Shown piece after piece: positions 23,301 to 23,594 of a stretch of DNA of 40,162 nt (its first letter is position 1; each line of letters opens with the position of its first letter). The notes under the pieces are model-generated. The model was not told the origin of the DNA and did not search any database. It was given only the letters and a program-made list of their open reading frames with translations. Origin of the DNA: a virus. Where the stretch lies: positions 1-40,162 of IMG/VR virus record IMGVR_UViG_3300029258_003599; one strand, 5' to 3'. Both the position numbers and the translations under genes were made by a program.

Positions 23301-23594
23301 TTACTCTTCATCCGAAATCTTTGTCCATACTGCTTCTTCGTTGCATACAGTTTGTAATATAAATGCTGTTGGTTCGTCTTTTACTATCCATATGGTTCCG
23401 ATATTAAATTTAATATCTTGTTTTGTTGGCAGGCTATTTTGAAGAGTAATTGGCGCTTGCGGTTCTAGTTCATTAATTGATTTAGCTTTTACTCTCTTTT
23501 TGTTTAATTTGTAGTTCTCTACACAAAGTGAAATCGCTGCAGAAATTGGAATCATAACGATGACGGTTGCCCATAAAATTGTGTGTATGCTCAT
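23301..23594 (-). CDS. Membrane-anchored copy of the tail-fibre N-terminal domain
   Basis: 97 residues. Residues about 5-25 are one hydrophobic helix (ILWATVIVMIPISAAISLCV), followed by a basic linker. Residues about 46-93 (QAPITLQNSLPTKQDIKFN, then IGTIWIVKDEPTAFIL and AVWTKI) match the N-terminal domain of the fibres at 11652 (AGTIWINQSTNSAFILIKV) and 19470 (LGSIWVNWGSNDAFILVNI). It is expressed from the early strand, apart from the virion genes. Topology is unclear: the basic linker after the helix favours a cytoplasmic domain unless the helix is a signal peptide. Possible roles are fibre assembly at the membrane or superinfection exclusion. Confidence 0.65.
   Translation of the reverse strand: MSIHTILWATVIVMIPISAAISLCVENYKLNKKRVKAKSINELEPQAPITLQNSLPTKQDIKFNIGTIWIVKDEPTAFILQTVCNEEAVWTKISDEE

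Follow-up and report, generated by a model that had tools for sequence, protein, structure and literature searches.

A 97-aa protein encoded on the minus strand of a phage genome combines a predicted membrane helix with a homologue of the domain found at the head of the phage's own tail fibres. The window, that is, the whole stretch of DNA analysed here, comprises 40,162 nucleotides of viral sequence (IMG/VR record IMGVR_UViG_3300029258_003599). It carries a 52-base terminal repeat (1-52 and 40111-40162), and a contig with an identical terminase (G001) runs across its end junction, so the record is circular or terminally redundant; a complete circle of ~40.1 kb is the likeliest reading. The gene occupies positions 23301-23594 (stop codon included). 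The explanation we tentatively favour, at somewhat below even confidence, is that it encodes an early inner-membrane protein that uses the oligomerization module of the fibres and probably trimerizes through it on the cytoplasmic face.

The open reading frame (ORF) is intact and its product reads MSIHTILWATVIVMIPISAAISLCVENYKLNKKRVKAKSINELEPQAPITLQNSLPTKQDIKFNIGTIWIVKDEPTAFILQTVCNEEAVWTKISDEE. A ribosome-binding-like sequence, AAGGTG, is positioned 6-11 nt ahead of the ATG (23600-23605, minus strand). The hydrophobic segment consists of residues 6-25 (ILWATVIVMIPISAAISLCV; 23520-23579, minus strand) and reaches a Kyte-Doolittle maximum of 2.29 over 19 residues, in agreement with the membrane helix proposed in a first-pass annotation of the sequence. 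A basic stretch follows at residues 27-38 (NYKLNKKRVKAK; 23481-23516, minus strand), defined by charge count. The fibre-head domain covers residues 46-95 (23310-23459, minus strand), as located by sequence profiles and predicted strands, and the protein stops two residues past it, with no shaft. Four residues that are invariant in the domain (P56, G66, W69 and W90) are all present despite ~60-70% divergence. A signal peptide or lipoprotein signal was rejected by eye, as there is no basic residue ahead of the helix and no lipobox; the start of the protein is also unlike the MKK-type starts of neighbouring genes.

The phage has two tail fibres, both on the plus strand: a type A fibre (11652-13793) with its fibre-head domain at 11724-11864, and a type B fibre (19470-21311) with the domain at 19539-19700. 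When the 97-aa protein was compared with its own genome by tblastn, it matched both domains (19539-19700, E 7.6e-7; 11724-11864, E 0.0017). A fibre-only profile, built from 22 fibre-head domains of the phage and its relatives with the 97-aa protein left out, matches the protein with 40.3 bits (E 7e-11). The best of ~20,000 shuffled versions of the sequence scores 13.3 bits, against 40-42 for the real one, and the reversed sequence -2.1. Profile-profile comparison with hhalign gives a probability of 97% (E 1e-10). The earlier claim that residues 46-93 match the N-terminal domain of the phage's own fibres thus stands, and the domain is a true homologue of the fibre-head domain. At ~50 residues the domain is short, which might leave room for a chance resemblance or a generic beta motif, but the shuffle, reversal and profile tests all exclude this and its probability is negligible. 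Searches of Pfam, PHROGs and PDB sequences with the 97-aa protein and the fibre domains returned nothing significant.

The predicted structures agree with this relationship. AlphaFold2 places the same four strands in the 97-aa protein (49-52, 68-71, 76-84 and 87-93) and in fibre 1 (25-27, 43-46, 51-59 and 62-67), with a predicted local distance difference test score of ~91-96 over the domain; the match is therefore not a motif lacking structural overlap. In VIA-align comparisons, trimerization domains of collagen XV/XVIII lead for the model of the 97-aa protein (Z 5.0-5.7; next rows 4.2-4.8, below 3 from rank 13) as well as for that of fibre 1 (Z 4.4-4.9; next rows 4.2). Unrelated folds score below 3. 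Both models align to the same solved domains across equivalent residues. For the collagen rows the root-mean-square deviation is 2.1-3.2 with 46-55 residues aligned and Z below 8 in both cases. Among viral predicted structures, the matches come from phages and giant viruses and are tail fibres or proteins with collagen repeats. Taken with the position of the domain in fibre-forming proteins, these models suggest that the fibre-head domain may be trimerization-like. The likeness is put as a suggestion because the Z scores lie below 8, Foldseek E values are poor and the Pfam model of the collagen trimer, PF20010, finds no match.

In fibre heads of either type, conservation is highest not in the domain itself but in a short peptide ahead of it (RVTG..PLSYMGVEATTPP or F.PDQ..GIY..P). 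In type B fibres this leading peptide reads RVTG..PLSYMGVEATTPPQ, and in type A fibres F.PDQ..GIY..PIVS. The 97-aa protein does not have it, since its match begins at the API motif, after the position of the peptide. The leading peptide would be a better candidate for the virion-docking part than the domain, and the 97-aa protein carries the module without this presumed docking peptide. The first-pass annotation had described the domain as a virion-attachment part; its best fold match to a trimerization domain and the absence of the conserved peptide do not support that description. Fibre heads also occur alone, as 72-73-aa proteins on the fibre strand that consist of the leading peptide and the domain and then stop. 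Such proteins were seen in G036/G037, G062 and L184 (L096:2354-2569, L188:9954-10172 and L184:7146-7364), which shows that fibre head and shaft are separable.

The 97-aa protein has no charge ahead of the helix and a net charge of +5 in the 15 residues after it (26-40). By the positive-inside rule, this pattern predicts that the C-terminal part, including the fibre-head domain, lies in the cytoplasm, and it does not support display outside the cell. This bears on the proposal that a cell-bound copy of the domain blocks incoming related phages. N-terminal helices or lipid anchors are common among superinfection-exclusion proteins, and one of these, Ltp of phage TP-J34, targets a part of the virion, the tape measure protein (PMC3952083). 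However, the exclusion proteins known to be anchored in the cytoplasmic membrane are turned towards its outer side (PMC3952083). The place of action of fibres is beyond the cell surface, and fibre heads stay out of the cell, so an inner-membrane protein of a Gram-negative host could not meet the fibres of an incoming phage. Even if the orientation were reversed, the domain would be in the periplasm, given a Gram-negative host, which is still not where fibres act. The domain also resembles an oligomerization module and not a receptor or a part involved in injection. Given the predicted cytoplasmic side, the site of fibre action and the outward facing of known exclusion proteins, a role as surface decoy is unlikely and the blocking of related phages very improbable.

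The exact architecture of helix and domain is a single instance among the ~75 records searched. Whole-protein orthologues were found neither in viral contigs nor in the phage collection, and neither near-complete relatives nor near relatives with the same fibres contain a counterpart of the gene. The pairing was thus not recovered in other phages; the domain, however, does recur in other genes beside those of ERF-family single-strand annealing proteins, the family that flanks the 97-aa gene. G036 and G037 each have, next to ERF genes, a 189-aa gene whose product carries the domain C-terminally (residues 137-182); the fibre-only profile matches it at E 3e-6. The gene is 100% identical in three metagenomes (L096:5480-6046, minus strand; L098:6747-7313, minus strand; L174:452-1018). 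As in the 97-aa protein, the copy in its product starts at the (A)PI motif, stops after the last strand and has no leading peptide. A membrane anchor is not claimed for it, as its hydrophobicity of 1.50 is borderline.

More distant relatives, located by way of ERF, have an ORF downstream of ERF and on the same strand whose product, 59-147 aa long, contains a divergent copy of the domain (alignment A9). There are 17 such loci. The gap to ERF is 13-90 nt in 12 of them and 127-1204 nt in four, and one has an intervening gene. Members include L060:2923-3177, L189:8754-9008, L193:8652-8984, L194:6017-6265, L200:2923-3219, L203:8598-8891 and L222:8614-8850. The A9 genes are usually convergent with a fibre gene that bears the fibre-head domain. 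When a profile made from A9 alone was run against 11,355 distinct ORFs, of which 74 carry the domain, the seven best-ranked ORFs other than the A9 members were all fibre-domain ORFs. Profile-profile comparison of A9 with the fibre heads scores 28.8, while 200 column shuffles score at most 14.8. No Pfam or PHROG family covering A9 was found. The 97-aa protein itself matches A9 weakly (hhalign probability 23%, E 9e-4; 10.5 bits with the hidden Markov model). As it matches the fibre version far better than A9, it is either a separate capture of the domain or a conservative member of the A9 family. Away from ERF, a 147-aa ORF at L190:1906-2346 (minus strand) has a possible C-terminal fibre-head domain (iterated profile E 7e-8).

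The 97-aa protein is no closer to the fibres of its own phage than to those of others. When the collected fibre domains are ordered by how well they align with it, fibre 2 of its own phage scores 4th and fibre 1 scores 20th, and recent duplication of an own fibre was ruled out as the source on this ground. The protein could not be placed in a tree of 41 domains, for which too few alignment columns are available, and its branch is long. Judged from these alignments, the domain is not a fresh copy from the phage's own fibres, and there is no sign of co-evolution with them. This matters for the main rival idea, in which the membrane-bound domain meets its homologue on newly made, still cytoplasmic fibre chains and pairs with it, so that fibre assembly is held, delayed or guided at the membrane; guidance of this kind had also been proposed in the first-pass annotation. 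The idea draws on the true homology and shared predicted fold, on a predicted cytoplasmic location where fibres are also made, and on the domain-bearing fibre gene found on the other strand in 12 of the 17 A9 loci. The missing co-evolution sign, the near relatives with the same fibres that do without the gene, and the absence of the fibres' conserved leading peptide all weigh on the other side, and such a partnership has a fairly low probability. We judge it more likely that the module has been taken over for a task that does not involve the fibres than that it interacts with them. A broader version, in which small proteins of the early ERF block throughout the phage group, soluble or membrane-tethered, pair with fibre chains to set the time, the place or the partner of fibre trimerization, would amount to a dedicated regulator of fibre assembly made from the fibre's own oligomerization domain. 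It is speculative and rather improbable.

A gene confined to a single genome, with no orthologue in near-complete relatives and a long branch in the tree, might also be a functionless duplicate, decaying or neutral, in which part of a fibre gene came to follow a membrane segment. This is unlikely in view of the open frame and plausible ribosome-binding site. In addition, retention of the four invariant residues despite the divergence argues for selection on the fold, and three metagenomes share identical copies of the analogous 189-aa gene.

In the explanation favoured here, the 97-aa gene would give rise to an early, single-span inner-membrane protein whose C-terminal fibre-head homologue serves as a compact oligomerization module, most likely for trimerization. 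The product would be a homotrimer held in the membrane, its domain facing the cytoplasm, and the gene would be one of several in the ERF blocks of a wide phage group that carry the fibre-head module. Several observations weigh against this account. No Foldseek match to the PDB has an E below 0.6, and VIA-align Z stays under 8. PF20010 has no match at E 10 in seven records of the phage group, and in Pfam the fibre domains do not match it either. In the collagen-like fibres of E. coli prophages (EPcl), which have separable PfN, PCoil and PfC modules, PCoil and PfC trimerize, and the N-terminal PfN is mostly monomeric alone, which calls for caution about trimerization of fibre heads (PMC3368898). 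The exact architecture occurs in one genome only, so conservation across species cannot prove its use, and the presumed early expression is deduced from gene position.

The gene has an ERF gene to either side and lies on the minus strand, the fibres on the other, which makes its earlier assignment to the early strand sound, as a deduction and not a measurement. One ERF copy (21383-22150, minus strand; Pfam ERF E 7.5e-13, PHROG 2324 E 2e-26) is the final gene of the minus-strand block, and the second (24167-24709, minus strand; Pfam ERF E 2e-19, PHROG 2324 E 5e-31) lies upstream in the block of the 97-aa gene. The two differ, with ~25% mutual identity, and in relatives a variable cassette sits between them. 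Directly upstream of the 97-aa gene is a 191-aa protein of unassigned function (23647-24222, minus strand) whose sole relative is in G046 (32%). Directly downstream is a 174-aa protein (22734-23258, minus strand), followed by a 91-aa protein (22458-22733, minus strand); both have signal-peptide-like starts and no relative was found for either. Small proteins of this kind (MKK..., then a hydrophobic stretch) cluster at 7981-11474 and 22458-23258, both on the minus strand. Their number is unusual for a 40-kb phage and the sets vary between relatives. Within a presumed replication gene, the sequence GCCTTCGCTAAAGCTACGGCCGGC (27420-27460) reads AFAKATAGRH. We take it to resemble an in-frame inserted mobile palindromic element, which may hint at the host group. 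Type A fibre heads had no match in bacterial genomes, nor was there a match in 50 genomes from the order to which a Holosporales contig carrying a distant terminase belongs.

No literature describing the 97-aa protein, the 189-aa protein or the A9 family was found, nor a Pfam or PHROG family for the 189-aa protein, and the view that no system of this form has been described holds within Pfam, PHROGs, PDB sequences and the literature searched. Tail fibres are modular, although no description was found of a fibre oligomerization head moving into non-structural genes. That the module recurs beside ERF is of greater interest because, with 17 A9 loci, the question can be tested in many phages and not in one odd gene only. 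Either the module is a general-purpose oligomerization part re-used by phages, or fibre assembly is under the control of early proteins. A compact trimer module of phage origin, if confirmed, could be a possible part for protein engineering, like the collagen XVIII domain.

Several known or related systems share features with the 97-aa protein. Ltp of TP-J34 and SieA of P22 are likewise small phage-encoded membrane proteins, Ltp being directed at a virion component (PMC3952083). They act on injection at the outer face of the membrane, whereas the domain of the 97-aa protein is predicted to lie on the cytoplasmic side and the part shared with the virion is a fibre domain. The A9 proteins have a homologous domain by profile comparison and the same ERF neighbourhood, but no obvious membrane helix in the sequences read. 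Longer members extend past the domain (GdfLe..F...cL..Y, helical by eye) with a segment that is absent from the 97-aa protein and from shorter members. The multiplexin (collagen XV/XVIII) trimerization domain, PF20010, heads the fold matches of both models, at Z 5.7 and 4.9. There is no sequence match to it, the likeness at Z below 8 may be one of arrangement only, and the trimer state here is putative. The type A and type B fibre heads have the homologous domain with the same predicted strands and all the invariant residues; there it is N-terminal, with a leading peptide and a shaft, and in the 97-aa protein it is C-terminal, after a membrane helix and on the opposite strand. The EPcl fibres offer a parallel in design, as they show phage fibres to be built of separable oligomerization modules (PMC3368898).
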